Part shown: piece after piece, positions 5,633 through 63,166 of the stretch
Numbering within the stretch: the stretch's first letter is position 1
Layout: each line of letters starts with the position of its first letter
Position numbers and translations under genes: made by a program
Source of the DNA: Roseovarius bejariae
GTDB lineage: Bacteria > Pseudomonadota > Alphaproteobacteria > Rhodobacterales > Rhodobacteraceae
Assembly (NCBI RefSeq): GCF_009669325.1
Contig: NZ_SZWE01000002.1
Coordinates: 509,120-573,119 of the forward strand
Length of the DNA: 64,000 nucleotides
Direction of reading: 5' to 3'
The notes under the pieces: generated by a model
Seen by the model: the letters and a program-made list of their open reading frames with translations, nothing else
The model's database searches: none
Told to the model about the DNA's origin: nothing

Positions 5633-7600
5633 ATGATTACAGAACTCGGTCACTTCGCCCTCATCCTTGCCTTTCTTGTCGCCGCCGTTCAGGCGGTCGT
5701 TCCACTTGTGGGGGCGCAGAAGCGTTGGCCCGGCTGGATGGCCGTGGCCGAGCCCGCCGCGACGGCGCAATTTTTCCTGACGGCGGTCAGCTTTGCGGCG
5801 CTGACCTATGCCTTCGTGGTGTCGGATTTCTCGTTGCGTCTGGTGGTGCTGAACAGCCATTCCGCCAAGCCGATGCTCTACAAGATCACCGGGGTTTGGG
5901 GGAACCACGAGGGGTCGATGCTGCTTTGGGTGTTGATCGTGACGCTGTTCGGTGCGTCGGTTGCGTGGTTCGGGGGAAACTTGCCGCCGGGGTTGAAGGC
6001 GCGGGTGCTGAGTGTGCAGGCGATGATCGGGGTGGCGTTTTTCGCCTTTATCCTGTTCACCTCGAACCCGTTCCTGCGGATGTCGGTGCCGCCCTTTGAC
6101 GGGCAGGATTTGAACCCGCTTTTGCAGGACCCCGGTTTGGCCTTTCACCCGCCGTTCCTGTACCTGGGGTATGTCGGCCTTTCGATGACCTTTTCCTTCG
6201 CGATTGCGGCCCTGATCGAGGGGCGTGTGGATGCGGCCTGGGGCCGGTGGGTGCGGCCCTATACGCTGGCGGCGTGGATGTTTTTGACCGTAGGGATCGG
6301 CCTTGGCAGCTGGTGGGCTTATTACGAGCTTGGCTGGGGCGGGTTCTGGTTCTGGGACCCGGTTGAGAACGCCAGTTTCATGCCGTGGCTCATTGCCGCC
6401 GCGCTGTTGCATTCGGCCGTGGTGGTTGAGAAGCGGGAGAGCCTGAAAAGCTGGACGATCCTGTTGGCCATCATCGCCTTCGGCTTTTCGATGGTCGGCG
6501 CCTTTATCACGCGGTCGGGGATCATCACCTCGGTCCATGCCTTCGCCACGGACCCGGAGCGGGGGATGTTCCTGTTGCTGATCTTGGCGGTTTTCATGCT
6601 GGGCGGGCTGACGATGTTTGCCGCGCGAGCCAATGCCATGCAGGCCAAGGGGGTTTTTGCCCCGGTGAGCCGCGAGGGGGTGTTGGTGATCAACAACATC
6701 CTGCTGGGGGTCTCGGCCTTCGTGGTGTTCGTCGGCACGATCTGGCCGCTGGTCAGCGAGATGGCCTTTGACCGCAAGCTGAGCGTCGGGGCGCCGTTCT
6801 TCAACATGGCCTTCACGCCCTTCATGGTTCTTTTGGGCCTGATCCTGCCGGTGGGGGCGATGTTGCCGTGGAAACGGGCGAATCTGCGCCGTGTGGTCAA
6901 ACCGCTGCGCGGGGCATTCATCCTGTCGCTGGCGATTGGCGCGCTGGCCTTTGCCATGCAGACCGGGCGCAGTGCGCTTGGGCCTGTGGGGCTGTTTCTG
7001 GCGGCCTGGCTGATTTCGGGCGCCTTGGTGGATTTGTGGAGCCGGACGGCCCGGGCCGAGAATCGTTTCGCGCGGTTGCGCCGCTTGCCGCGGGCCGATT
7101 GGGGCAAGGCCATGGCCCATGGCGGCCTTGGCGTGACCATTGCCGGGATCGCGGCGATGATGGCCTGGGAGGCCGAGGATATCCGCGTGGTACAGGTCGG
7201 CGAGAGTTTCGAGGTGGCGGGGTTCACCCTGACGCTTGACGAGGTGCGGCGCCTTGAGGGGCCGAACTACGACGCGACCCAAGGGATTGTGACGCTGGCC
7301 AAGGACGGTCAGGAAATTTCCACAATGTATCCGGAAAAGCGGGTTTACCCGGTGGCCAAGATGCCCACGACGGAAGCCGCGCTTGATAACGGATTCCTGC
7401 GGGATGTTTACGTTGTCATCGGTGATCCGCAAAACAACGGGGGCTGGGCGATGCGCACCTATTACAAGCCGCTGGCGAACTGGATCTGGGGCGGTGCGAT
7501 CCTGATGGCGATCGGTGGGTTGCTGTCGCTGAGTGACCGGCGCTATCGCGTGGCGGCGGGCGCACGCCGCGCGGTGCCCGGCGGGGTGCCAGCGGAATGA
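5633..7600 (+). CDS. ccmF: Heme lyase subunit CcmF
   Basis: A 655-residue polytopic membrane protein, the main component of the heme-apocytochrome c ligation complex. It has the tryptophan-rich WWD-type heme-handling motif WGGFWFWDPVENASFMPW near residue 240 and many transmembrane helices. The chosen start ATG 5633 gives the characteristic N-terminus MITELGHFALILAFL; the frame is open to 5570 but that would add a non-conserved basic leader. It overlaps ccmH by 4 bp (ATGA), so the two are translationally coupled. It normally acts with CcmH and CcmI. Confidence 0.95.
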   Translation: MITELGHFALILAFLVAAVQAVVPLVGAQKRWPGWMAVAEPAATAQFFLTAVSFAALTYAFVVSDFSLRLVVLNSHSAKPMLYKITGVWGNHEGSMLLWVLIVTLFGASVAWFGGNLPPGLKARVLSVQAMIGVAFFAFILFTSNPFLRMSVPPFDGQDLNPLLQDPGLAFHPPFLYLGYVGLSMTFSFAIAALIEGRVDAAWGRWVRPYTLAAWMFLTVGIGLGSWWAYYELGWGGFWFWDPVENASFMPWLIAAALLHSAVVVEKRESLKSWTILLAIIAFGFSMVGAFITRSGIITSVHAFATDPERGMFLLLILAVFMLGGLTMFAARANAMQAKGVFAPVSREGVLVINNILLGVSAFVVFVGTIWPLVSEMAFDRKLSVGAPFFNMAFTPFMVLLGLILPVGAMLPWKRANLRRVVKPLRGAFILSLAIGALAFAMQTGRSALGPVGLFLAAWLISGALVDLWSRTARAENRFARLRRLPRADWGKAMAHGGLGVTIAGIAAMMAWEAEDIRVVQVGESFEVAGFTLTLDEVRRLEGPNYDATQGIVTLAKDGQEISTMYPEKRVYPVAKMPTTEAALDNGFLRDVYVVIGDPQNNGGWAMRTYYKPLANWIWGGAILMAIGGLLSLSDRRYRVAAGARRAVPGGVPAE

Positions 7601-51371: not shown

Positions 51372-54300
51372 TCATCTTCCATCCAGGTCGTGCAGATCGA
51401 TTTCCGATCCGTTCTTCAACATATCGTAGATCAGATTCGTCATGATCCCGAGGCTCTGGCGGTCTTCCTTCAGTAGGGTGGCAGCTAAGGTACTGTTGGA
51501 GCCCATGGCCCGAACGATCGCGGCCTGGATCGCGCCAGGCAGATTGCCTTTTAGAGCCTGTTCCTTGGGGTTTTTCTCCACCTGTGCCATGACGATCTCA
51601 TTCTCGCGGGTAATGGCTGCGATGTGGTTCACGAAGTTAGCTTGATCCTTCAGGGGCGCCGCTTCACCGAAAATCCCGTTTAGTCTTTCGATTAGTTCCT
51701 GGAGGTAGACAGGTAAACTTCCAGGAGCAGGCGAGCCTCCTGGTCCGATTGGCTTGAGCGTCAAATCCGTTTCCTCGTCCTCGGGATCAGGTTGGCCGGG
51801 AACATCTACGGTCTGGATGTCGTAGCCTGTGAGGCGGATACCTGACAGATCGATTTGATCGGGTGGAATACCGTCAAGGCGCTTCGACAGTAGCTTTGTA
51901 AAGCTGGCAAGATTCTCGAGCTCCGGATCCCCGAGATCGATCAGCTGAGCGATGTAGGCATAGGTTCGAGAGAACCGCGCCAGCCCAGCCTTGAAGTCTG
52001 CCATTTGACCGATAGCCTCATCAATCTGGCGGCGCTCATAATCCGCCTGTTCCATGCCGGCCTCGTTGCCAGCTGCCTTCGCAGCTTGGTAATCTGCTTC
52101 GGCCTGCTGGCTTCGCGTTCGCAATTCCTTCAGGCGCGTGTTGTAGAGGTCGGTGGGCTCTTGGGTGGCCGCATACATCGCCTTGTGTTGCGCGTCTTCT
52201 GAAGAACCGTGCTCGTATCTGGCCTCGCGGAATGCTTTGACGTGAGAGGGCATGAAGATCGCTTGTTCTTCAAGTTGCTCTTTGAGCTCGTAGATGACCT
52301 CGAGGGTTTGCGCCTCCTCTACCTTTGCTCCGGAGTCATACTTCGCGAACGCGTCGAGGACGACCTCCGGATCATTCACGAAGTCGACGACGAAGGTTTG
52401 ATCCTTCCCTGGGGCAGTTCGGTTCAATCGGGACAGGGTCTGAACGATATCGACCTCGTTCGCGATCTTCTTGTCGATATACATTGCCACGAGCTTCGGC
52501 TGATCGAAGCCCGTCTGGAACTTGTTCGCGACGAGCATGACGCGGTACTCGGGTCGGTCGAAGACGATCCGAAGATCCTGGTTTTTCGCGGCGGGGTTCA
52601 TGTTGCTTTCAGTGAACTCGGCATCCTCTTCGCAGACGAAGGTTTCCCCGGAAATCCGATCATCGTCGGAGTGCATGACGTCCTTGCCCGACAGCTTGCC
52701 GGAGAAGGCCACCAAGGCGCGAATTTCCTTGTATTGCGGGTTCGCTTCGATAAAGGCGTCGAAGGCCTTCTTGTACCTGACAGCTGCGGGACGAGAGCTT
52801 GTGACAACCATAGCCTTCGCCTGGCCATCCAGCAGGTGCGCCACGTTCTTGGAGAAGTGTTCCACGATGAACTGCACTTTCTGGGTCACGTTTGTTGGGT
52901 GGAGACTCATCCACCTGGCGAGAGCGCGCTTTGCGGCCTTGCCATCAACACGCTTGTCGTCCGCGATCTGCTTTCCGAGGTTGAAGGCCGTCTTGTAGGG
53001 AAGATACCCCTTCAGAACATCGAGGATGAAGCCTTCATCGATTGCCTGGCGCATCTCGTATTTATGGAAGGATTCCGGCAGGTTGTCTTTGTCGGCGGGC
53101 CGCGACGGATCCGGACGCCGTCCAAAGAGCATCATGGTTGAATGTTTCGGCGTTGCCGTGAACGCGAAGTGGGAGATGTTGCTCGGCCGCACGCGGCTCT
53201 TCTGAATCTCCTCAAGAAGCTCCTCTACCGTCATCCCGGCCGTGTCCTTGTTGGACGACATGGCGAGGGTCGCCTGGAGCTTCGAGGCCGTGCTGCCGGT
53301 CTGCGAGGTGTGCGCCTCGTCGATGATGACCGCGAAGCCACGATCCTTCAGCGAGGTCTCGGTGAGGATCGCCTCCATGGCGTAGGGGAAGGTCTGGATT
53401 GTCACCACGATGATCGGCGTGCCCTTCAGGATCGCTTCTGTGAGCTGCTGGCTCTTGCTCTTGGAGCTCTTGTCGCGATCAATGGCAGCGATCAGGCCTT
53501 CCTGGTGGTCAATCTGCTGGACGGCATCCTGAAGCTGGCCGTCGAGGACATTGCGGTCGGTGACGATGATCACCGTATCGAAAATCGCCTTTCCCTCATT
53601 AGAACGCATCTTGACCAAGTCATGGGCCGTCCAAGCGATGGTCGATGTTTTTCCCGAGCCGGCACTGTGCTCGCACAGGTAGGCATGACCGGGACCGTTC
53701 GCCTTGGCGTCCTCGGTCATTTTGTTGACGGCATCGAGCTGGTGGTAGCGCGGGAAAATCTGGGTTTCCTTGACGGTCCATTTCCCCTTCAAGTCCACGA
53801 CGTCCTTTTTCTCGACATAGACGAAGCTGTGGAAAATCCGCAGCCATGCGTCGGGCTGGCAGATTTTTTCCCAGAAGTAGGCGACGGGATATTCCCGGTC
53901 GTCGCGCGGAGGATTCCCGCCGCGTCCGTCATGCCCCTGGTTGAAGGGGAGGAAGAAGGTGTTCTCTCCGGCCAGCTTCGTCGTCATCCAGATTTCGCTG
54001 TCAGACATGGCGAAATGCACGATGGCGCCGCGCTTGAATGTCAGAAGAGGGTGCTTACGCTTCGTCTTGGGCTCCATCGGGAGCCTGTCTTCGATGTATT
54101 GCAGCTTTGCGGCTTCGGCCGACTGGGTGAAGTCGGTCTTGAGCTCGACCGTGGCGACGGGCAGGCCGTTCAGGAAGAATCCGAGGTCGATCGCATCCTG
54201 GTGGCCGTGCTTGTATTTCAGCTGCGGAACGACGCGCAGGCGGTTGGCGGCGTAGCGGTCGATGATCTTCTGGTTTCGCTGATCCTCTGGCGCGGCCTCG

Positions 54301-54605
54301 GACATGTCGATCTGTCCGCAGCCGGCGATGGCGAAGCCGCGGCGCAGGACATGGATAGGGCCGTTCTTTTCGAGCGCGGCCTCGAGCTTGTCCATGAGGA
54401 CCTTGCGGGCATTGGCGCCATTCATGGCAACCAGTTTTTCCCACTTGGCGGGCTGAGTTGCTTTCAGCCACTCCTCGATATCCTCGGGGTAGAGGGCGTG
54501 ATCCTGGTCGTAGTGCTCCGAGGAGCCCAGCAGCCAGCCTTGTTCGGTCAGCTTCTGGACGATGTACGCCTCGAGATGCTTTTCGTGGTGTTTATCGTCC
54601 TTCAT
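51372..54605 (-). CDS. hsdR: Type I restriction enzyme R subunit HsdR
   Basis: A 1077-residue motor/nuclease subunit. The N-terminal PD-(D/E)XK nuclease shows DAIDLGFFLNGLPVATVELKTDF (Asp ... Glu-x-Lys). The helicase follows: Walker A EHSAGSGKTSTIAW, motif II VIIDEAHTSQTGS, and motif VI-type QTLSRLNRTAPGKDQTFVVDF. The C-terminal part is helical and would dock on the methyltransferase. The size is typical of the large HsdR class. The ATG overlaps the hsdS stop by 4 bp (ATGA). Cutting requires the M and S subunits encoded upstream. Confidence 0.95.
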   Translation of the reverse strand: MKDDKHHEKHLEAYIVQKLTEQGWLLGSSEHYDQDHALYPEDIEEWLKATQPAKWEKLVAMNGANARKVLMDKLEAALEKNGPIHVLRRGFAIAGCGQIDMSEAAPEDQRNQKIIDRYAANRLRVVPQLKYKHGHQDAIDLGFFLNGLPVATVELKTDFTQSAEAAKLQYIEDRLPMEPKTKRKHPLLTFKRGAIVHFAMSDSEIWMTTKLAGENTFFLPFNQGHDGRGGNPPRDDREYPVAYFWEKICQPDAWLRIFHSFVYVEKKDVVDLKGKWTVKETQIFPRYHQLDAVNKMTEDAKANGPGHAYLCEHSAGSGKTSTIAWTAHDLVKMRSNEGKAIFDTVIIVTDRNVLDGQLQDAVQQIDHQEGLIAAIDRDKSSKSKSQQLTEAILKGTPIIVVTIQTFPYAMEAILTETSLKDRGFAVIIDEAHTSQTGSTASKLQATLAMSSNKDTAGMTVEELLEEIQKSRVRPSNISHFAFTATPKHSTMMLFGRRPDPSRPADKDNLPESFHKYEMRQAIDEGFILDVLKGYLPYKTAFNLGKQIADDKRVDGKAAKRALARWMSLHPTNVTQKVQFIVEHFSKNVAHLLDGQAKAMVVTSSRPAAVRYKKAFDAFIEANPQYKEIRALVAFSGKLSGKDVMHSDDDRISGETFVCEEDAEFTESNMNPAAKNQDLRIVFDRPEYRVMLVANKFQTGFDQPKLVAMYIDKKIANEVDIVQTLSRLNRTAPGKDQTFVVDFVNDPEVVLDAFAKYDSGAKVEEAQTLEVIYELKEQLEEQAIFMPSHVKAFREARYEHGSSEDAQHKAMYAATQEPTDLYNTRLKELRTRSQQAEADYQAAKAAGNEAGMEQADYERRQIDEAIGQMADFKAGLARFSRTYAYIAQLIDLGDPELENLASFTKLLSKRLDGIPPDQIDLSGIRLTGYDIQTVDVPGQPDPEDEETDLTLKPIGPGGSPAPGSLPVYLQELIERLNGIFGEAAPLKDQANFVNHIAAITRENEIVMAQVEKNPKEQALKGNLPGAIQAAIVRAMGSNSTLAATLLKEDRQSLGIMTNLIYDMLKNGSEIDLHDLDGR

Positions 54606-55792
54606 GCTGCGCTCCTCGCGTCAATCTTGCCCGTGACGGCGGCTGTGATCAATGCCGCACGCTTTTCCTTGAGGAGGGCGATGCTTTGCTCGGTCTTGGC
54701 GATGAGGTTCCGAATGCGATCCAGCTCACGGTCGATTTCATCCGCGATGGCGCGCTGTTCCTCCAAGGGCGGCAAGAATATCGGCAGGATCAGGAATTTC
54801 TCTGGTTCGAGGCGCCATTGATCGGTCCGAATGCCATTCGAAATGAGCCTGTATAACCAAGGCATTGGGCGCGCGCGCAGATAGTGGTGCATATAGCGGG
54901 GATCATGCTCACCCACCGGTTCCATGACCACATAGTCCGGGCTGGTGATGCCTTGCATGCCAGCGATTCCCATAGAGCCTTGCCACGCTTTCATCTTATT
55001 GATCACCAGATCATTCGGGTTGACCATTTGATACTTCGACAAGTCCTCGGGGGTCTTGTTGATGTTGTCGTCACGCGAGGCTTTTTCGATAACGCCGTAT
55101 TCACGGTAGACGGATAGAACCGTAAGGGTTTCGTATCCCAACCGTTTCTGGGGGCGGAAATGGTTTTTCATTCGTCCTCGCGTCCAGTGAGTTGGAACCT
55201 TGCCGCGCCATTCAACACCGGCATCAATCATCTTGGCGTCTGGGTCGACACCCACGCGGACGAGATGTGAAATCTTGGCCTTTTCCTTCTCATTCAGCAG
55301 TGCGATGAAGCGGGCCTTCTTCTCGATCAACCCGTCAATCCGCGCGGTTTCGCGGTCAAGGAAACGAGTTATTTGGGCCTGATGTGCCACATCAGGAAAT
55401 CGGACGACGATCGAGCCAAGCTGAAACTGCGTGAGTTTGTCCCGGGTCGAGCCGTTCGTATACAGAGAGTAGTCTACTTGGTTTAAGTAGTACGCTAAGA
55501 ATTCATGACTTATCTTGGATGTGTCAGGGCGCAACACATGTATATGATTGTTGGGCCAAATGGGTCCTTCTGAAACAAATGCGACGTCCTTGAAGGGGTC
55601 ATAAAAAGGTGCGCCATCTTCTCCAATAAGAACAACTTTTTCGTCCAATAGGGCGGTGTCTACATAGTCCACGATTTTATTGGCTCCCCAATAGGGGACG
55701 GAGCCCGAAACGTGCTCTCGTTCGACAGCATTTAGAGGAATCCTGAGGTAATCAAGGTTCTCAGTAAGCCAACGAAGACGCGCGTTATTCAT
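54602..55792 (-). CDS. hsdS: Type I specificity subunit HsdS
   Basis: A 396-residue DNA-recognition subunit with two target recognition domains. TRD1 spans roughly residues 1-140 (YWGANKIVDYVDTALLDEKVVLIGEDGAPF, ending FLDRETARIDGLIEKKARFIALLNEKE), and TRD2 roughly 190-330 (LPIFLPPLEEQRAIADEID). Each is followed by a helical spacer, as in standard HsdS. The TRD1 coding stretch (about 55400-55790) is lower in GC than hsdM or hsdR, suggesting a swapped domain. It overlaps hsdM by 4 bp and hsdR by 4 bp. Confidence 0.92.
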   Translation of the reverse strand: MNNARLRWLTENLDYLRIPLNAVEREHVSGSVPYWGANKIVDYVDTALLDEKVVLIGEDGAPFYDPFKDVAFVSEGPIWPNNHIHVLRPDTSKISHEFLAYYLNQVDYSLYTNGSTRDKLTQFQLGSIVVRFPDVAHQAQITRFLDRETARIDGLIEKKARFIALLNEKEKAKISHLVRVGVDPDAKMIDAGVEWRGKVPTHWTRGRMKNHFRPQKRLGYETLTVLSVYREYGVIEKASRDDNINKTPEDLSKYQMVNPNDLVINKMKAWQGSMGIAGMQGITSPDYVVMEPVGEHDPRYMHHYLRARPMPWLYRLISNGIRTDQWRLEPEKFLILPIFLPPLEEQRAIADEIDRELDRIRNLIAKTEQSIALLKEKRAALITAAVTGKIDARSAA

Positions 55793-57810
55793 TCCGTCAC
55801 CTCTGCCAGGATCGCTGCGATTTCGGCCTCCACGGCGTTCAGGTCGGCGTCGATCTCGTCCAGGTCGCGCGGCGGCTGATACTCATAAAAATACCGGTTG
55901 AAATTGATCTCGTAGCCAACGATGCCGACCTCGCCATCGGTCTCGTCCCGGTAGGTGTCGTCGATATAGGCGTCCGCGGCATGGGGCAGGACCTCGGTCG
56001 CCAGATAGTCCTGGATATCCGTGTCCATCGGCACGTTCTCGTAATCCGTCAGGTCGTCATCGGGCAGGACATTGCCCTTCTTGTCGGTGACAGGCTCAAG
56101 CTCTTGGTCGTGCACGCCGAAGGCGCGCTGGAGCATCTTCACATGCGTCGCGGTGAGTTTGCCCAGCCCGGAATCGGCCTTGGCCGCGGCCTTCATCCAG
56201 CCATCGACCCAGTGCCAGTCATGTTCCGTCCCCATCTGTTCTTCCAACAGGGCGCGCCAGCTTTCGCGCTGGTCCTCGGTCAGCTTGGTCCAGGGCTTTT
56301 CTTCTTCCAGCTTGGCCAGCCCGTCCTTGGAGATCACGATCTTCTTGCGCAGGGGGCGCAGGACACGGATGCGGCGGTAGCCGAATTCCGTGCTGTCGAA
56401 GATCTTGCTTTCGCCGGTCTCTTCGAAGGCGGAATACATGCTGACGATATCGCGCGTCTGCGCTTCGCCCACGCGGCGGCGCTTGTTGCCCTCGCTCTTG
56501 CGCATGGACTCGTACATCTCCGTCGCGTTGATCAGTTGCACCTTGCCTTGCCGATGCGCCGGTTTCTTGTTGGACAGGATCCAGATGTAGGTGCCGATGC
56601 CCGTGCGGAAGAATATCTCCTGAGGCAGCGCGATGATGGCTTCGACCACATCCTGTTCCAGCAGGTAGCGGCGAATCTCGGATTCGCCCTGGCCTGCACG
56701 CCCGTTGAAGAGGGGTGAGCCGGAAAGCACGATGGCAGCCCGGCCGCCACCTTTCTCCGGATCCTCCAGCTTGCTCAAAAGGTGGAGCAGGAACAGCATG
56801 GAGCCGTCGCCGACGCCCGGAAGCTTCGGTCCGAACCGGCCTTCGAACTTTTGGTCGTTGTGTTCCCTGACCACCGCAGCTTGGTCCATCTCCCATTTTT
56901 TGCCGAAGGGTGGATTGGAGACGCAATAGTTGAACTTTTCGTTCGACAGCTGGTCGTTCGACAGGGTGCTGCCAAGCTTGATGTTTTGTGACAGGTCGCG
57001 GCCCGGATCGGTCGGGATTGTCTTCAGAAGCATGGATGCGAGCGCGACGGCGTGCGTTTCGGGCTCAAGTTCCTGGCCGTAGGGAACGATCGTCGGGGCC
57101 TGGCCGTAACGGTCCCGCAGGGTGTCCACATGTTCCATCCCATCCGACAGGAAACCACTGGTGCCGCAAGTCGGGTCGTAGAGGGTGGTGATGAGACCAG
57201 GATTGTCGACGAAGATCTGCTCATCAGGGTCAAGAAGAAGCTCGATCGCCAGGTGCACGACATCCCGCGGCGTCATGAAGTCTTCTGCGGCCTCGTTCAC
57301 CTCGGCGCCGAACTTGCGGATCAGATGCTCGTAGACATTGGACATGGTCCGTTCGGGGACCTTGTCGGGGTGGAGGTCGATTGCAGCGAAGTTCAGGCAG
57401 ATCTTGTAGAGCACGCCGGCGCGATCCATGCGGGCGATCGTGTTGGCGAAGTCGAACTGCTCGAAGATCACCCGGGCGTTGGCAGAAAAGCTCGAGATAT
57501 AGTCCTCAAGGTTCTGTCGAGTGCGGGTCGCGCCGAGGCTCTTCAGGTCGTAGTTCGAGGTGTTGTAGAACGGATATCCCGAGATCGGACGCAGGATGAG
57601 ATCCATATCGATCCCCTGATTGGCCATCGACTGGTGCGTCGAGACAACCTGTTCCCGGGTCGGCTCCAATACGCATTCAAGGCGGCGGAGCAGGGTGAAA
57701 GGCAGGATGATCTTACCAAAATCGACATGTTTGAAATTGCCCCACAGGGCGTCGGCGTTTTTCCAGATGAAATCGGCCAGGGTTGTGTTGTTACCGTTGG
57801 TTTTGGTCAT
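55789..57810 (-). CDS. hsdM: Type I methyltransferase subunit HsdM
   Basis: A 673-residue N6-adenine methyltransferase. The N-terminal helical domain begins TLADFIWKNADALWGNFK. The AdoMet motif I is LYDPTCGTSGFLSDGM, and catalytic motif IV is NPPFGKKWEMDQ. The family TADEN region around YGQELEPETHAVALASMLL is intact. A coiled-coil C-terminus (DEIDADLNAVEAEIAAILAEVTE) mediates assembly with HsdS. All residues expected for activity are present, in contrast to the gene 79 bp upstream. It overlaps hsdS by 4 bp. Confidence 0.96.
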   Translation of the reverse strand: MTKTNGNNTTLADFIWKNADALWGNFKHVDFGKIILPFTLLRRLECVLEPTREQVVSTHQSMANQGIDMDLILRPISGYPFYNTSNYDLKSLGATRTRQNLEDYISSFSANARVIFEQFDFANTIARMDRAGVLYKICLNFAAIDLHPDKVPERTMSNVYEHLIRKFGAEVNEAAEDFMTPRDVVHLAIELLLDPDEQIFVDNPGLITTLYDPTCGTSGFLSDGMEHVDTLRDRYGQAPTIVPYGQELEPETHAVALASMLLKTIPTDPGRDLSQNIKLGSTLSNDQLSNEKFNYCVSNPPFGKKWEMDQAAVVREHNDQKFEGRFGPKLPGVGDGSMLFLLHLLSKLEDPEKGGGRAAIVLSGSPLFNGRAGQGESEIRRYLLEQDVVEAIIALPQEIFFRTGIGTYIWILSNKKPAHRQGKVQLINATEMYESMRKSEGNKRRRVGEAQTRDIVSMYSAFEETGESKIFDSTEFGYRRIRVLRPLRKKIVISKDGLAKLEEEKPWTKLTEDQRESWRALLEEQMGTEHDWHWVDGWMKAAAKADSGLGKLTATHVKMLQRAFGVHDQELEPVTDKKGNVLPDDDLTDYENVPMDTDIQDYLATEVLPHAADAYIDDTYRDETDGEVGIVGYEINFNRYFYEYQPPRDLDEIDADLNAVEAEIAAILAEVTE

Positions 57811-57889
57811 GGGATCCTTGGGGGTGTTCGTGTGTTACGCTTTGGCTCAATCGGGATATTGGTCCGAACAGGACGGACCGAAGGCTCTT

Positions 57890-59620
57890 TCAGTCTGCGC
57901 TGTTCAGGGGCGGAAGATCGCGGTGAGGCCAACTCTTCGCCTTCATGGCTCCGATCTCCTGGCGAAGTCGTTCAAGCTCTCGGAAGGCGTCTTGTCTTTT
58001 CGCAAATTCTTCACGAATCTTCGCCTGTTCCTCCATCGTGGGGACCGGGATCGGCAGAGACTTGAGATCCTTCATGTTGAACGCCTGAATGACGGCACCA
58101 CCTGCGAGCGTGTTGAGATGCTCGTGCATCAGCTCGCTCGAAAGGTATTCGTAAAGCGCCTCTGGAAGCATCCCTCCGCGCCTTGGGCGAAGGATCATCA
58201 TGGATTGTCCCACCGTCCAGAATGTGTCGGCGTTGCGATCTGGTACATCATCGGGCACAAGTCCCACCCGGCCAATCGTTCCTTTTACGGAAATGACGAC
58301 ATCGCCAGGTTCCAGTTGCTGATTTCGAGCCTTGCGAAGGCCGCCGCGGCCCACCTTGATGATCTTCGGCGGTTCGGTAAGGAAGCCATCCTCGCCGACA
58401 TCACTGGGCGCCGTTTCGTGAACCAGGTATTCGCCGTCTTCATCTTTCGGCAGTGCGACCGGGCGGATCAATTCGACAATCTCGGAGAGCTCTTTAACCT
58501 CGTATCGGTCATTGAAAGCGGAGAGCTTCGCGGCCGTACGGCTCAGGTAGCGTGAGGGTGTCAGGATGCGGTCCTGCTCTTCGATTTCGGGAACAGGCAC
58601 ATCTCTGGCATAATCGACTTCCAAAGCTGAATTCGACAGCATTTCCGCCCACGTCACATCGAGTCTGGCCTCGTAGCGGCCACGGCTGCTGCGGGAAGCG
58701 AAATGCGGGTCAGAAAGATCAGTAAACCGCACGATATCGCGCTTTTCGCCGACTGGCGACATGACCAGAAGAGCGGTTGCGATGCCGGTCTCGTGATAGA
58801 TCATGCCAGAAGGAACATCGAAGACGGCTTGGAGCCTCCCTGCGTTGATCAATTCGTCACGTGCAGCGACTTCGACCCCAACCATGCGGAAGAGGGGGCC
58901 GGCGGAGACGCCGATGATCGCTTGAGCTTGAGGCGCATGAGCGAGGATATCGGCAATCGCAACCGGTTCTGATGTAAGGCGTCCGGATTGCATGGCTCCC
59001 AGCCATTCAAGGGTTTCCCGGGGGAGGGCGGCAGCCTTGTCCATCTTCCACCCGAACGGAGGAAGGGAAATCTCGGCCTCTGCCTTCACCCCATCAAGGC
59101 GTTCGAAGGGCTGCCCGAGAAAGACAGACATGGTCACCTCAAGGGAAACCGCAGCAAGAGCGGCCATGTCGCAAACCTCTGGGTTTTGATCGACAAAGCA
59201 AAGATCAACCTCATCGCCAGCCTCTGCGGCGGCGACTCCGATCTGCAGAGCAGGATGCAGTGACCACCCGAATGCGCATCGCACCGAGCTGACACCTTCC
59301 ATGATCTGGGCGATCTGCTGTGCGGCGGGCGAGGCAATCCAGAGATGATCTACCAGTTTACCTCGATGGCTGTTTTCCAGGACAACATCCAATGCAGCAA
59401 GGCGATCGCGTGGAGGAAGCCCGAGGAAGGTTTGGGCTGCCGCCTGCAGTTGCGGGTAGGCTTTGTCCGCGGAGAAGTTCTTCCACTTTTGCAGAGCCCC
59501 GCCATGGGTCTCAGGCACATTGCCGATCTTGTGAGCAACTTCCACGAGAAGGAGCGCGGGCAGTTCATCCATGCTCATTGTACCTCGGAGGCCGGCGATA
59601 ATTTCCCAAACTTCTTTCAT
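57890..59620 (-). CDS. Degenerate N6-methyltransferase-like domain fused to an HsdS-like target recognition domain
   Basis: A 576-residue protein not assignable to a standard R-M subunit. Residues about 1-330 follow the layout of HsdM-type methyltransferases but lack the catalytic motifs. In place of motif I (DPxCGxG) is RCAFGWS (114-120), and in place of NPPFG is SLPPFG (185-190), with Asn replaced by Leu. Residues about 380-560 resemble half of an HsdS: GDVVISVKGTIGRVG, then KDLKSLPIPVPTMEEQAKI and a helical tail. It is read into hsdM (gap 79 bp) and follows a DUF4258-like gene by 7 bp. It probably binds DNA or the R-M complex without methylating; that is an inference. Confidence 0.72.
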   Translation of the reverse strand: MKEVWEIIAGLRGTMSMDELPALLLVEVAHKIGNVPETHGGALQKWKNFSADKAYPQLQAAAQTFLGLPPRDRLAALDVVLENSHRGKLVDHLWIASPAAQQIAQIMEGVSSVRCAFGWSLHPALQIGVAAAEAGDEVDLCFVDQNPEVCDMAALAAVSLEVTMSVFLGQPFERLDGVKAEAEISLPPFGWKMDKAAALPRETLEWLGAMQSGRLTSEPVAIADILAHAPQAQAIIGVSAGPLFRMVGVEVAARDELINAGRLQAVFDVPSGMIYHETGIATALLVMSPVGEKRDIVRFTDLSDPHFASRSSRGRYEARLDVTWAEMLSNSALEVDYARDVPVPEIEEQDRILTPSRYLSRTAAKLSAFNDRYEVKELSEIVELIRPVALPKDEDGEYLVHETAPSDVGEDGFLTEPPKIIKVGRGGLRKARNQQLEPGDVVISVKGTIGRVGLVPDDVPDRNADTFWTVGQSMMILRPRRGGMLPEALYEYLSSELMHEHLNTLAGGAVIQAFNMKDLKSLPIPVPTMEEQAKIREEFAKRQDAFRELERLRQEIGAMKAKSWPHRDLPPLNSAD

Positions 59621-59627
59621 TGTATAA

Positions 59628-59909
59628 TCAACCCCTGCTTTTTTTGGCCGCGGTCGAAGAAAAACTGTCAGCGCGGTAAGTTGTAATCACGGTGTCGCCG
59701 CAGCTCACCACAGTCAAGCCACCTTTCTTACTCGCGTGCTCAAGCTTTTTCTGAAGCTGCTTGAGCGCGGCAATCGTCAGACGGCAGTCCTTCGCGGTCA
59801 GCACTGTCTTGTCTCCATCAGACTCGCCATACTCCATGACGAGTTCGATCATTTCTCCGGTAATGCCTCGTTGGTTCATCCGGATGTCGCTGTGTGCAGT
59901 CCTCTGCAT
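59628..59909 (-). CDS. DUF4258-like small protein
   Basis: A 93-residue protein from ATG 59909 (MQRTAHSDIRMNQRGITGEMIELVMEYGE), with a perfect AGGAGA ribosome site. It has the DUF4258 pattern: an early HxxxRxxQRGI helix, then a central basic helix, then a final strand GDTVITTYRADSF. Members of this family are small, often near toxin-antitoxin or phage genes, and not biochemically characterised as a class. It precedes the methyltransferase-like/TRD fusion by 7 bp on the same strand, so the two are probably coexpressed. Confidence 0.68.
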   Translation of the reverse strand: MQRTAHSDIRMNQRGITGEMIELVMEYGESDGDKTVLTAKDCRLTIAALKQLQKKLEHASKKGGLTVVSCGDTVITTYRADSFSSTAAKKSRG

Positions 59910-60069
59910 CGCATTCTCCTTTCTGCTGAAAATATAAATAGCACCTGTAAATCTAAAAGCAACTCCTGATTTTAGAAAATGCAAAAAATTTCTGCGCGGC
60001 CGGGTTTGCCCGTCCGTGCTTTGGATCTACGGTCAAATTCGTGCTAACTTTCCATGGCGGGAGACGCCA

Positions 60070-60316: not shown

Positions 60317-60676
60317 TCAAGGTGTTGCCTGCTGCTTCTCTTCGACTGCCTCGCTGGGGGCCTCAGTGTCTCCGAGTCCATTGAGCGTAATGGGGGTGTG
60401 CCCCGGCATCTCAACCTGCAGGGTAAGCTTTCCCCCGAGGCCTTCTATGTAAGCGCGAAGGGTGGAGATCATAAGGTCGCTGCGCTGCTCCAGCTGGGCG
60501 ATGGAGGACTGCCGTTTATTAAGGATGCGCGACAACTCCACTTGGGTCACTTTCTTCGCTTTGCGAAGCTCCTGAAGCGACAGGTATTCAGCATATATGC
60601 GCTCCGCGCCGTCCTCGACCTTCGCGCGGTTCTCATCGGACAGCTCGGCAAGGACATCATCCAGCGAAATGGTCAT
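60317..60676 (-). CDS. HigA-type XRE antitoxin
   Basis: A 119-residue protein with a central helix-turn-helix (LQELRKAKKVTQVELSRILNKRQSSIAQLEQRSDLMISTLRAYIEGLGG, about residues 34-82) of the XRE class. The N-terminal LDDVLAELSDENRAKVEDGAERIYAEY and the acidic C-terminus would contact the toxin. Its start overlaps the toxin stop by 4 bp. Toxin-first order matches HigBA-type and Gp49-like systems. It should neutralise the toxin and repress the operon. Confidence 0.85.
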   Translation of the reverse strand: MTISLDDVLAELSDENRAKVEDGAERIYAEYLSLQELRKAKKVTQVELSRILNKRQSSIAQLEQRSDLMISTLRAYIEGLGGKLTLQVEMPGHTPITLNGLGDTEAPSEAVEEKQQATP

Positions 60677-61050
60677 CTGTCTTTTCCCTTCAGTTTTTCC
60701 AGGTGCGCATCGAAGCGCGCATCTGCGGTCTTGATCAACTTCTTGTAGAAGCGTTTCTGGTTCACCCCTGACTTATCGCCGGCCGTCAAAAGCAGGGCCT
60801 TGCGTTCCGTATCGAAGGCGAAGGCAACGCGCCATGTTTCGTCACCTAAATTAAACCTTAACTCCTTCATGTTGGCATGCTTGGAGTCATATAGAGTATC
60901 CACGAGTGGCCGACCCAACTCGGGTCCCACACCCTGAAGTACGAGCGCCATCTCCAAGATTTTCAGGCGTACCTCCTTGGGGAAGTTGTCGAACTCCTTC
61001 TTCTTGAAGTCCTCATCAAAATCTACAATCCATTTCTTCTCAAGAGACAA
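60673..61050 (-). CDS. RelE/HigB (Gp49-like) toxin
   Basis: A 125-residue protein starting with TTG 61050 (encoding SLEKKWIVDFDEDFKKKEF after the initiator). The Gp49-like core is visible: MKELRFNLGDETWRVAFAFDTERKALLLTAGDKSGVNQKRFYKKLIKTADARFDAHL. These toxins are ribosome-associated mRNA interferases. Basic residues in RFYKKLI are as expected for RNA contact. The XRE partner follows with a 4-bp overlap. A palindromic sequence just upstream may be the autoregulatory operator. Confidence 0.85.
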   Translation of the reverse strand: MSLEKKWIVDFDEDFKKKEFDNFPKEVRLKILEMALVLQGVGPELGRPLVDTLYDSKHANMKELRFNLGDETWRVAFAFDTERKALLLTAGDKSGVNQKRFYKKLIKTADARFDAHLEKLKGKDR

Positions 61051-61135: not shown

Positions 61136-63166
61136 TCATCGAAACGCCTCAGCATCACGGGCGATGTGCTGTGCCAGCTTCGCGTTGATTGCGCAGATGA
61201 GGCGCTCAAATCGATCCAGGGACGCAGAAGTCAGGACCTCCTTGGGGGACTGGCCCATCTTTTCAAGAAACAGGCGGGCAGGGCGGGTCTTGCTGAATTC
61301 CAAGTCGGCTTCCTTGAGAGCCTGCTCCATGCGCTTGGCAAGGCGCGGAATGCGATCGTTCACGGTGAGCTTCTTCTTTCCGATCTCGGAAGCATGGCTG
61401 TCGCGAACGAGATTCTCGTAGACATCGGCGTCGAGCAGATCCTCGATGTCGGCATCCTTGGGGCGCGCATCTGTCTCGAAGGCATCGCCGATCGACAGGA
61501 TGTTATTCTCCCGGAGGACCTTCGTTTTCAGGAGATCTTCCCGGGTCGACAGTGCGTCCTTCTCGTGATCGAGCAGGACTAACACGTTCAGGTTCTCCGA
61601 AGCCAGCAGAGCCGCCATGTAAGGGATCTTCTGAGCGCCGCCGGCCGGCGTGATCGTCAGTGCCTCGTTGAGGCTCTGTCGGCCTTGGGAGGCCAGATAT
61701 TCCGACACCGCCGACAGGATCCAGAAATCAGTCACGCCCTCGACGATCAGGTTGCTCCCGCCGAGGAACAGGCTCTGCGCCAGGTCGTAGCCGAGGGCCG
61801 CCTGCAGGGGAAACAGGGTTTTCCGGTCGCCGGACGGATTGTTCGTGACGGTGGTCCCGTCGGCCTCGGCGATACTCACCGTCCGGACCCAGTCGAGGTG
61901 CCTGGTCGGGACCATGAAGGGTGAGTGCGTGGTGTAGAGGATCTGGTTCTCGAAATCGTCTTCAAGGTGGGTAAGCAGGTCGCCCTGAGACTTGGCGTGC
62001 AGGTAGAGCCCCGGCTCGTCGAGAAGCAGTATCGCGGTGTCTTTGTCGCCATTGTCTGTGTCGGCCGCGAAGGCGGTGTAGAAGCTGAAGAACCACTGGA
62101 ACCCGCGACTGCGTTCGTTCAGGTTCACATCCACGTCGAAGCTCTTTGCAGTGTCCGAGACGAAGGTGTGCAGATCGTTGCCGTCGAGATTGAATCGAAC
62201 CTTCACCTTGCGATCGGTCCAGCGCTTCTGCAGTTCCGCTGACATGACAGAGCTGGCGCGGTTCGCGAGCTGGTTCCGTTGCTCTGTGTCGTCTATCTGA
62301 ATCTCCTGAAGCCGGGCCGGATCAAGGCCGGCCACCTTGCAGAGCTTCTCGAAATTCTCGTCAGAGGTTTTCGTAGTGCCCTCGGCCTTGCGCTTGAGAT
62401 ACGCGGGGATGTTCTGGTGACCGGGAATTTCCGGATAGTCGTCGAAATAGACGAACAAGGGCAGCTGCTTCATTAGCCAGGCCCTGGCTGCGGCATGAGC
62501 CTCTTCGTCGCCGGCGATCGCTTTGGCGTCCTTCTGCAGGCCCGTCAAAACCTCTTCTTGCTTGTCGGTGAGCTCCTCGTCGGCCTTGGCCAGTTCGGTT
62601 CGGAGCGTCTCGATCGCCGCAATCGTGGCGGTTGCCCAGTTCTGAGCGTCCTCCTGGGGCGCGGCCGCAGTCTTGAATGTGTCAGCGGCCGCCTCGAGGA
62701 CCGATTTTGCTGCGGCGTCTTCGACCTTGGATGCGGTCGCTTTGACGCTGGCGCCGATCTTCTCCACGGCTTTCTCGATGGCGTCCGTGTCGAAGGGGAG
62801 GTCGTCGTGTGGAATGAACATGGTGCGATTCGCGCCATAGACGCGTGTGATCTTAATGGGTTCATCTGGTCGCGACCGAGGCCAGAGCTTGGATACCTGG
62901 GCCCGCTCCTGTTCGTCCAGCGCCCAAGTCGTGATGGCCACAGGGGTGTGCTCGCAGCATTCCTCCAGTCGGCGGTTGCGAGGGAAGTCCTTCACGTCGT
63001 TCAGCGGCTGTAGGCCGCCGACGGGATTCACATGTGCGAGGGCCCGCAGGAGGTTCGACTTACCGCTTTCGTTCCGCCCCAGCAGAGCCGTTATCCGGGA
63101 AGCTGAAATTTCTCCGCTGTCCTGGATGGAGCGGTAGTTCGTGATCCGGAATGTGGAAAGCTGCAT
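61136..63166 (-). CDS. OLD-family ATP-dependent nuclease (AAA ATPase plus TOPRIM)
   Basis: A 676-residue protein. The N-terminal ABC-type ATPase has Walker A GRNESGKSNLL (residues 30-40), a coiled-coil insertion of about 200 residues, then Walker B AILLLDEPGLYLHAKSQ and the H-loop region TTHSPFMVP. The C-terminal TOPRIM domain shows LIVEGVTDFWILSAVSEYL and VLVLLDHEKDALS, supplying the acidic metal-binding residues of an OLD nuclease. The gene layout is that of the class 1, stand-alone OLD proteins; no UvrD-like helicase is adjacent within the window. A role in phage or plasmid defence is likely from context. Confidence 0.88.
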   Translation of the reverse strand: MQLSTFRITNYRSIQDSGEISASRITALLGRNESGKSNLLRALAHVNPVGGLQPLNDVKDFPRNRRLEECCEHTPVAITTWALDEQERAQVSKLWPRSRPDEPIKITRVYGANRTMFIPHDDLPFDTDAIEKAVEKIGASVKATASKVEDAAAKSVLEAAADTFKTAAAPQEDAQNWATATIAAIETLRTELAKADEELTDKQEEVLTGLQKDAKAIAGDEEAHAAARAWLMKQLPLFVYFDDYPEIPGHQNIPAYLKRKAEGTTKTSDENFEKLCKVAGLDPARLQEIQIDDTEQRNQLANRASSVMSAELQKRWTDRKVKVRFNLDGNDLHTFVSDTAKSFDVDVNLNERSRGFQWFFSFYTAFAADTDNGDKDTAILLLDEPGLYLHAKSQGDLLTHLEDDFENQILYTTHSPFMVPTRHLDWVRTVSIAEADGTTVTNNPSGDRKTLFPLQAALGYDLAQSLFLGGSNLIVEGVTDFWILSAVSEYLASQGRQSLNEALTITPAGGAQKIPYMAALLASENLNVLVLLDHEKDALSTREDLLKTKVLRENNILSIGDAFETDARPKDADIEDLLDADVYENLVRDSHASEIGKKKLTVNDRIPRLAKRMEQALKEADLEFSKTRPARLFLEKMGQSPKEVLTSASLDRFERLICAINAKLAQHIARDAEAFR

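Follow-up and report, generated by a model that had tools for sequence, protein, structure and literature searches.

Several kinds of regulator dedicated to restriction-modification (R-M) loci have been described. RptR is a repressor of Type I R-M defence islands, often encoded upstream of Type I R-M genes; it is a small, all-helical protein that binds the 6-bp sequence TAGCTA (PMC12255303). The C proteins of Type II R-M systems, and one encoded upstream of a Mollicutes Type I locus, are autogenous regulators with nearby operators and bind through helix-turn-helix (HTH) motifs (PMC12707154). The same source describes EcoRII, Ecl18kI and SsoII as methyltransferases fused to a transcription-factor domain, whose methyltransferase scaffold also represses their own R-M genes. 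Here we describe a locus in a stretch of 64,000 nucleotides of Roseovarius bejariae (contig NZ_SZWE01000002.1, positions 509,120 to 573,119; hereafter the window), where a DUF4258-like gene and a gene for an HsdM/half-HsdS fusion, which we call MS, precede the genes hsdM, hsdS and hsdR. MS is most probably a methyltransferase that has lost its activity and now serves as a repressor, which would place it among the R-M regulators. With RptR it shares a place at the head of a Type I R-M operon, but it is a 576-residue fusion of a pseudo-HsdM and a target recognition domain (TRD), with longer, group-specific candidate sites and usually a DUF4258-like gene. Like the C proteins it would act on operators close to its own gene, but RptR and the Mollicutes C protein are small and unrelated to it; and unlike EcoRII, Ecl18kI and SsoII, the enzyme is dead and the only DNA reader recognised in it is a Type I TRD.

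The MS gene occupies positions 57890-59620; this and all other cassette and operon features lie on the minus strand of the window, in whose numbering positions are given. Residues 1-362 (58535-59620) are HsdM-like, and residues 371-537 (58010-58510) form a single TRD. Pfam recognises N6_Mtase at residues 231-362 (1.9e-6) and Methylase_S at residues 371-537 (1.6e-12), and the predicted structure combines a full-length HsdM fold with half an HsdS, as the initial annotation had proposed. Structure matches to HsdM, HsdS and the half-S protein Esub1 (PDB 7vru, 2okc and 8vsq) cover both parts, from which MS differs in lacking the catalytic residues and in joining M and half an S in one chain; it carries one TRD, not the two of an HsdS. 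In the AlphaFold2 (AF2) model the C-terminal part forms a long helix (residues 529-562; 57935-58036), a possible dimerisation coiled coil. The best NCBIfam and PADLOC match of the TRD/C-terminal part is MAD5, the S subunit of a methylation-associated defence system (NF047740; PADLOC mad5, 2.6e-18), at 45 bits against an NCBIfam cut-off of 400. The neighbouring hsdM matches mad2 weakly (1.5e-13) and a Type I methyltransferase model better (4.9e-251).

Catalysis appears to have been lost long ago. Motif I of MS reads VRCAFGWS (residues 113-120; 59261-59284) and motif IV reads SLPPFG (residues 185-190; 59051-59068), with Leu at the catalytic N/D position, while the adjacent hsdM keeps DPTCGTSG and NPPFG; the two MS motifs had been read correctly in the initial annotation. 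We aligned the window protein with those of 22 genome loci (L101-L122). In 23/23 members the glycine-rich motif I, the AdoMet loop, is gone and motif IV has Leu, Met, Phe or Cys where Asn/Asp would stand. The pattern [ND]PP[FYW] occurs nowhere in the protein in any of these 23, nor in 12 distant members, of which 11, at 22-30% identity, came from the plasmid search by tblastn and the twelfth from Sulfuricurvum. Traces persist among distant relatives: the Salimicrobium member retains the Asn (NFPF), and some distant Bacillota members retain a motif-I-like stretch, which reads VLDATAGTAG in those of Lactococcus. As a control, NPPF or NPPY is present in the neighbouring hsdM at 25/25 loci examined (26 sequences; L116, L011, L015 and L150 lay outside this control), the exception being the second piece of the broken hsdM of L118. 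The ratio of nonsynonymous to synonymous substitution rates (dN/dS) of MS is 0.12-0.33 over 10 pairs of relatives, and its open frame is full-length in the 23 aligned members. Since catalytic residues are lost in all while dN/dS is low, these comparisons identify MS as an old pseudo-enzyme under selection. The dN/dS values and the conservation rule out an origin as a decaying duplicate, and bear out the earlier description of a differently built, dead extra subunit with a DNA-reading domain. Plasmid members were excluded from this alignment (A4) and from the structure predictions; in two of them MS is broken into two open reading frames (ORFs), namely in a Roseovarius S88 plasmid (L002, 8830-10532, at about residue 190) and a Roseomonas plasmid (L015, 5841-7735).

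The recognition domain of MS and the specificity of the adjoining R-M system evolve differently. In 10 close pairs of loci the TRD of MS is 87-98% identical, each time above the rest of the protein (75-90%), whereas HsdS identity is 27-43% in nine of the same pairs and 71% in one (L107-L111). HsdM identity is 44-46% in three pairs (L104-L105, L104-L109 and L112-L114), 85% in a fourth and 96-98% in the other six. Diversification is what one would expect of a specificity subunit, and the constancy of the TRD thus implies that MS reads a fixed sequence. On this evidence the recognition domain of MS is independent of R-M specificity and its predicted target is fixed, which disfavours a role as an alternative specificity subunit. 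The earlier suggestion that MS might redirect restriction is not supported, since its recognition domain does not track R-M specificity.

The sequence that MS most likely reads is an operator-like repeat in its own cassette, and this speaks against another earlier proposal, that MS senses modified DNA. The candidate site is 19 bp long, resembles AAAATCAG-N3-TTGCTTTT, and is present in two copies in the cassette. The first, op1 (AAAATCAGGAGTTGCTTTT, that is AAAATCAG-GAG-TTGCTTTT; 59955-59973), overlaps the -35 of a putative cassette promoter, TTGCTT-N16-TATTTA (59935-59962), picked by eye. The second, op2 (AAAAGCAGGGGTTGATTAT, that is AAAAGCAG-GGG-TTGATTAT; 59624-59642), lies over the stop codon of the DUF4258-like gene, ahead of the MS start codon. 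The joint pattern built from these two has two intact matches in the 3.5-Mb genome, op1 and op2 themselves, and two further matches at two mismatches, against none for the pattern read backward. Within the window there are two matches at three or fewer mismatches, with 0.05 expected. The upstream regions of relatives can otherwise hardly be aligned, yet they have in common a short block placed at the -35, with another like it just 5' of the MS start, and diverged versions of op1 and op2 recur there. At the level of sequence, the locus thus has what would be expected of a repressor: an operator-like site near its own putative promoter that is common to relatives.

Two comparisons indicate that the paired blocks belong together. 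Within loci, the op1 and op2 regions were compared by best 14-mer match in 13 representatives of the 20 loci having both, near-duplicates removed. Their summed likeness was 146, against 129.8±3.8 for permuted loci (0/100,000 permutations); taken singly, 9/13 loci had at most 15/200 single-base shuffles as good. Across loci, site arms from other loci, with the 3-nt centre masked, were used as probes, the target regions making up 0.3-1.7% of each locus. The top match fell inside the two regions in 98/168 trials; with shuffled probes it did so in 25.6±4.8 (at most 33 over 30 rounds), and with reversed ones in 33. In the window, 11/15 probes from other loci had their top match in op1 or op2: the L102 and L107 probes found op1 first and op2 second, the L120 probe found op1 first, and with the L015 probe op1 was tied with one other place. 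Sites are also present where no DUF4258-like gene was found (L118-L120 and Lactococcus L005/L011), and because they persist there, MS rather than the DUF4258-like protein is the likely binder.

A dimerising single-TRD protein would be expected to bind a symmetric site, and the DNA site of the engineered half-S EcoR124I is reportedly symmetric. We pooled the fixed 150-nt stretches ahead of the first cassette gene from 28 loci and scored palindromes with arms of 8. Base-centred palindromes were enriched at spacers 1, 3, 5, 7 and 9 (z 4.9-6.8; 0/300 shuffles each), with a peak at spacer 3 (181 vs 157.7±3.4), and even spacers gave z of 1.0-2.2. Without the four loci first read by eye, spacer 3 gave 154 vs 135.5±3.2 (z 5.7). 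This analysis supersedes an earlier pooled test of 20 regions (arm 8, spacer 3; 127 vs 110.6±2.8), which had included those four loci and a longer L119 stretch. Palindrome tests of single loci were mostly non-significant. By reading, loci with a DUF4258-like gene hold AAATCAG-TTG-CTGATTT (L015) or, around the -35, two GTAC-N3-GTAC sites (L003); among those in which none was found, L119 and L120 each hold two sites ahead of MS, and Lactococcus holds TAGTATTTCGAATACTA and TAGTATTAGCCATACTA. The title of the report on that engineered EcoR124I calls it 'symmetrical' (PMC3320862).

MS and its small partner recur together next to Type I genes. The genome contigs were scanned with six query sequences, every one of them adjoining R-M genes, and 26 loci were reduced to 22 members (L101-L122) by dropping the partial matches L123-L126 (106-164 residues); L014, a long methylase of different build, was also dropped. 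By tblastn, the DUF4258-like gene lies directly upstream of MS in 18/22 loci; L115 holds a decayed trace only, and none was found in L118-L120. The next gene on the same strand is a Type I R-M gene in 20/22, the exceptions being L102 and L119, and three of these 20 loci run off the contig within hsdM. By best phmmer match, the HsdM proteins are of three kinds: that of the window and L012 (15 loci), that of L003 (three: L101, L120 and L121) and that of L005 (two: L117 and L122). Searching 72,556 plasmid records by tblastn gave 32 with a match, one of them covered to at least 80%. R-M genes follow MS in 8/14 of the plasmid loci that were opened (L002, L003, L005, L011, L012, L013, L015 and L150), after one small gene in L013 and an unannotated stretch in L015; matches H6, H7, H10-H12 and H20-H32 lie outside these 14. 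The pairing and the Type I neighbourhood anticipated by the initial annotation are therefore found in other genomes, but not always.

In Pseudomonadota, Campylobacterota and Bacillota, MS-type genes adjoin Type I systems that are dissimilar to one another (in Bacillota with no DUF4258-like gene found alongside), and in one cyanobacterium they lie beside Type I genes. This distribution suggests that the DUF4258-like gene and MS form a portable cassette that combines with dissimilar HsdM types. A strong match (E<1e-90) was found in 4/146 near relatives, the window's own genome included (the others being G031, G069 and G085), and a strong DUF4258-like match (E<1e-39) in 5/295 genomes of the window's taxonomic family. 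Among the matches listed, the same five genomes have a match to profile A1 spanning the methyltransferase and TRD parts; the A1 searches returned mostly ordinary HsdM and scoring was confined to the 3 or 4 best candidates of each genome, which makes absences weak. A draw of 398 genomes from the phylum gave one strong DUF4258-like match, in the window's own genome, and two weak ones. A search of viral contigs gave 77 pattern matches, none of them a relative of MS, and none was found in phage records by the search made. In two cyanobacterial plasmids, an AGTA-N5-TACT palindrome and MS are separated by ORFs of 37 residues that resemble each other (L008, 6420-6533; L009, 4335-4448).

The DUF4258-like gene (59628-59909) encodes 93 residues counted from the ATG. 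Pfam DUF4258 (PF14076) matches about the N-terminal third of the protein at E=0.005 and 17.5 bits, below the curated cut-off of 25 bits; it matches 17/18 members of alignment A3, the window included, with E up to 1 and 1e-5 at best, and three relatives are named DUF4258 in public records. Invariant in 19 sequences are, among others, H6, R10, Q13, R14, K54, K62-G63-G64, T76 and Y78, and dN/dS over the same 10 pairs is 0.08-0.21. The AF2 model (pLDDT 85.5, pTM 0.60) has a topology that looks compatible with the BECR fold by eye, and no significant solved-structure match appeared in the Foldseek or VIA-align lists. DUF4258 has been listed, with its target unknown, among 13 toxin families of BECR fold (PMC11980606). 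The likeness to the toxins described there is that of a small protein encoded beside a putative DNA-binding partner; the differences are a long helix that precedes the final two strands of the model and a partner that is a dead HsdM-TRD protein, not MqsA. Around ten weaker DUF4258-like relatives in the window's family, 7/8 neighbours scanned have a Pfam HTH domain, which suggests that MS occupies the place held elsewhere by an HTH-domain neighbour. A trio consisting of an HTH protein (319-359 aa), a DUF4258-like protein (97-120 aa) and a protein of 172-202 aa recurs in L136, L137, L138, L140 and L142, and is a possible toxin-antitoxin-like unit. In L004, a 19-bp perfect inverted repeat (6616-6658) surrounds the annotated start of the DUF4258 gene.

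Taken together, we consider it fairly probable that MS descends from a Type I methyltransferase and acts as an autorepressor that controls the DUF4258-like gene and probably the R-M operon. MS would pair through its C-terminal helices, and the dimer would bind a short, roughly two-fold symmetric site present in two copies, one covering or adjoining the promoter of the DUF4258-like gene, the other directly 5' of the MS start. Bound MS would hold down the cassette and, because of read-through, the R-M genes that follow. The small DUF4258-like protein would be regulated together with MS and belong to the RelE/BECR toxin superfamily, probably as a toxin or a co-factor; its partner would be MS in place of the HTH protein found beside more distant relatives. 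The account is built on sequence: lost catalysis under purifying selection, the predicted fold, linkage, a fixed TRD, paired sites, enriched symmetry and the persistence of sites where no DUF4258-like gene was found. The earlier idea that MS inhibits restriction survives only when recast as the transcriptional repression proposed here.

A number of observations weigh against this account. HsdM identity is 96-98% within one group of four loci, where the R-M core thus travels with the cassette. The 20/22 linkage comes from a scan whose six queries all adjoined R-M genes, and 6/14 plasmid loci have no R-M genes following (L004, where they lie upstream of MS, and L006-L010). On Acinetobacter, Aeromonas and Azospirillum plasmids, DUF4258-like genes are annotated with different neighbours and with no M/S gene alongside; the small protein is thus not tied to MS. 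A consensus promoter scan did not call the putative TTGCTT-N16-TATTTA and listed no promoter. The window site has 6/8 symmetric pairs, which is not significant alone (94/200 shuffles as good), and L103, L106, L121 and L122 have no significant op1/op2 pair. The probes were chosen by eye; that of L121, a different-looking site which matched the regions in 3/12 targets, was excluded from the 98/168 (101/180 with it), and the L104, L112, L114 and L121 probes point elsewhere in the window. In several loci op2 coincides in part with a Shine-Dalgarno region and op1 with a -35, so both are constrained. Finally, in a partial Mantel comparison over 13 loci (TRD -0.22, N-terminal part 0.36), operator likeness followed the N-terminal part at least equally, the TRD was not singled out, and co-variation of TRD and operator beyond general relatedness was not shown.

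Could the cassette instead be a toxin-antitoxin module, with the DUF4258-like protein as RNase toxin, MS as a large antitoxin that also represses the operon, and the R-M genes as passengers or as genes that it guards? This alternative, which shares autorepression with the account above and differs on the purpose of the cassette, is a serious contender that we put somewhat below an even chance. It would explain why DUF4258 stands among the BECR toxin families, why H/R/R/K/Y residues are conserved, why the small gene is decayed or not found in 4/22 loci while MS is kept, as expected of a dispensable toxin with an indispensable antitoxin, and why HTH-domain proteins adjoin 7/10 of the weaker relatives. 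The toxicity is itself a prediction, however, coupled to a weak Pfam match over a third of the protein and to a model with no significant structural counterpart; R-M genes following in 20/22 genome loci would seem to fit a mere passenger poorly. An antitoxin of 576 residues would also be unusual. That the paired elements reflect promoter and ribosome-binding constraints, or stem from a duplication around a mobile DUF4258 gene, rather than being operators, seems unlikely to us. The overlaps with the -35 and Shine-Dalgarno regions, the position of the repeats on both sides of the DUF4258 gene and the 4/13 loci lacking a significant pair would suit it, but the two copies co-vary within loci, pairs persist where no DUF4258 gene was found (L119, L120 and Lactococcus), shuffled and reversed probes fail, odd-centred symmetry is enriched, and the CTGCCT-containing block common to L112 and L114 is neither a Shine-Dalgarno sequence nor a -35.

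MS might also act on restriction as a protein, joining HsdM, HsdS and HsdR as a poisoned or alternative specificity subunit that blocks or redirects it. Its HsdM/HsdS-type fold could assemble with the R-M subunits and its operon position would fit, yet its TRD stays constant while HsdS, and in some pairs HsdM, change; it occurs with three dissimilar HsdM types (best match), and the six plasmid loci mentioned lack R-M genes behind it. We regard this as improbable. Still active methylation with unusual motifs is the least credible of all: the Lactococcus motif-I-like stretch and the Salimicrobium Asn hint at it, and [ND]PP[FYW] is found in none of the 23 near and 12 distant members. Returning to MS as an autorepressor, one may speculate, as a long shot, that it is a decoy sensor: since MS retains the HsdM/HsdS surface, the DNA-mimic anti-restriction proteins with which phages or plasmids attack Type I enzymes would seize it too and free the operators, so that the R-M genes and the DUF4258-like toxin would be raised. 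If true, this would explain why the repressor is built from a dead methyltransferase rather than an HTH protein, and disarming restriction would trigger a second line of defence.

Downstream of MS the gene order corresponds to that first proposed, with ORFs and Pfam in agreement: hsdM (55789-57810; motifs intact, Pfam HsdM_N and N6_Mtase), hsdS (54602-55792; two TRDs as two Pfam Methylase_S stretches) and hsdR (51372-54605; Pfam HsdR domains) follow, with 4-nt overlaps between hsdM and hsdS and between hsdS and hsdR. The 79-nt gap between MS and hsdM (57811-57889) holds CGGACCAATATCC at 57854-57866 on the minus strand, an element whose count alone is unremarkable within the window. It differs from op1 and op2 and is a copy of neither, and a third site copy in the gap, controlling hsdM, is thus unsupported in the window; in the L112/L114 group, half-sites in this gap resemble the operators. 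GGACCNNTATCC also occurs, with zero mismatches, 3' of MS in L102, L104, L105, L108 and L109, and once in L115, away from MS; it is kept even in L102, whose next gene is not R-M. In L107, L110, L111 and L113 an inverted repeat, CACGCCAAGCGTG, lies ahead of hsdM in the same gap, the arms being longer in L111 and L113. A HigB/Gp49-type toxin gene followed by an HTH-protein gene (60317-61050, minus strand) lies just upstream of the cassette, and a HigB homologue lies near the cassette in L108 and L109 too. Further upstream, 61136-63166 (minus strand) encodes an AAA/OLD-TOPRIM-like protein with likeness to the Old, AriA and GajA models, which matches mad3 weakly (1.9e-11) and Old better (5.1e-25). 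Given this gene, the region around the cassette may be a small defence island.

No description of the MS family was found in the titles and abstract beginnings of the open-access PMC papers that our searches listed, and a Type I TRD as the DNA-reading part of an R-M regulator was likewise unseen in the literature consulted. What the comparisons add is the apparently fixed target of MS and the predicted paired sites in its cassette, which render the idea of a repressor directly testable. Those public entries of the family that are named N-6 DNA methylase or subunit M/S and carry a DNA methylation GO term are probably misannotated. If our interpretation is correct, a repressor of M/S type has become attached to dissimilar Type I systems, and a domain that confers restriction specificity would have been reused as a transcription factor.

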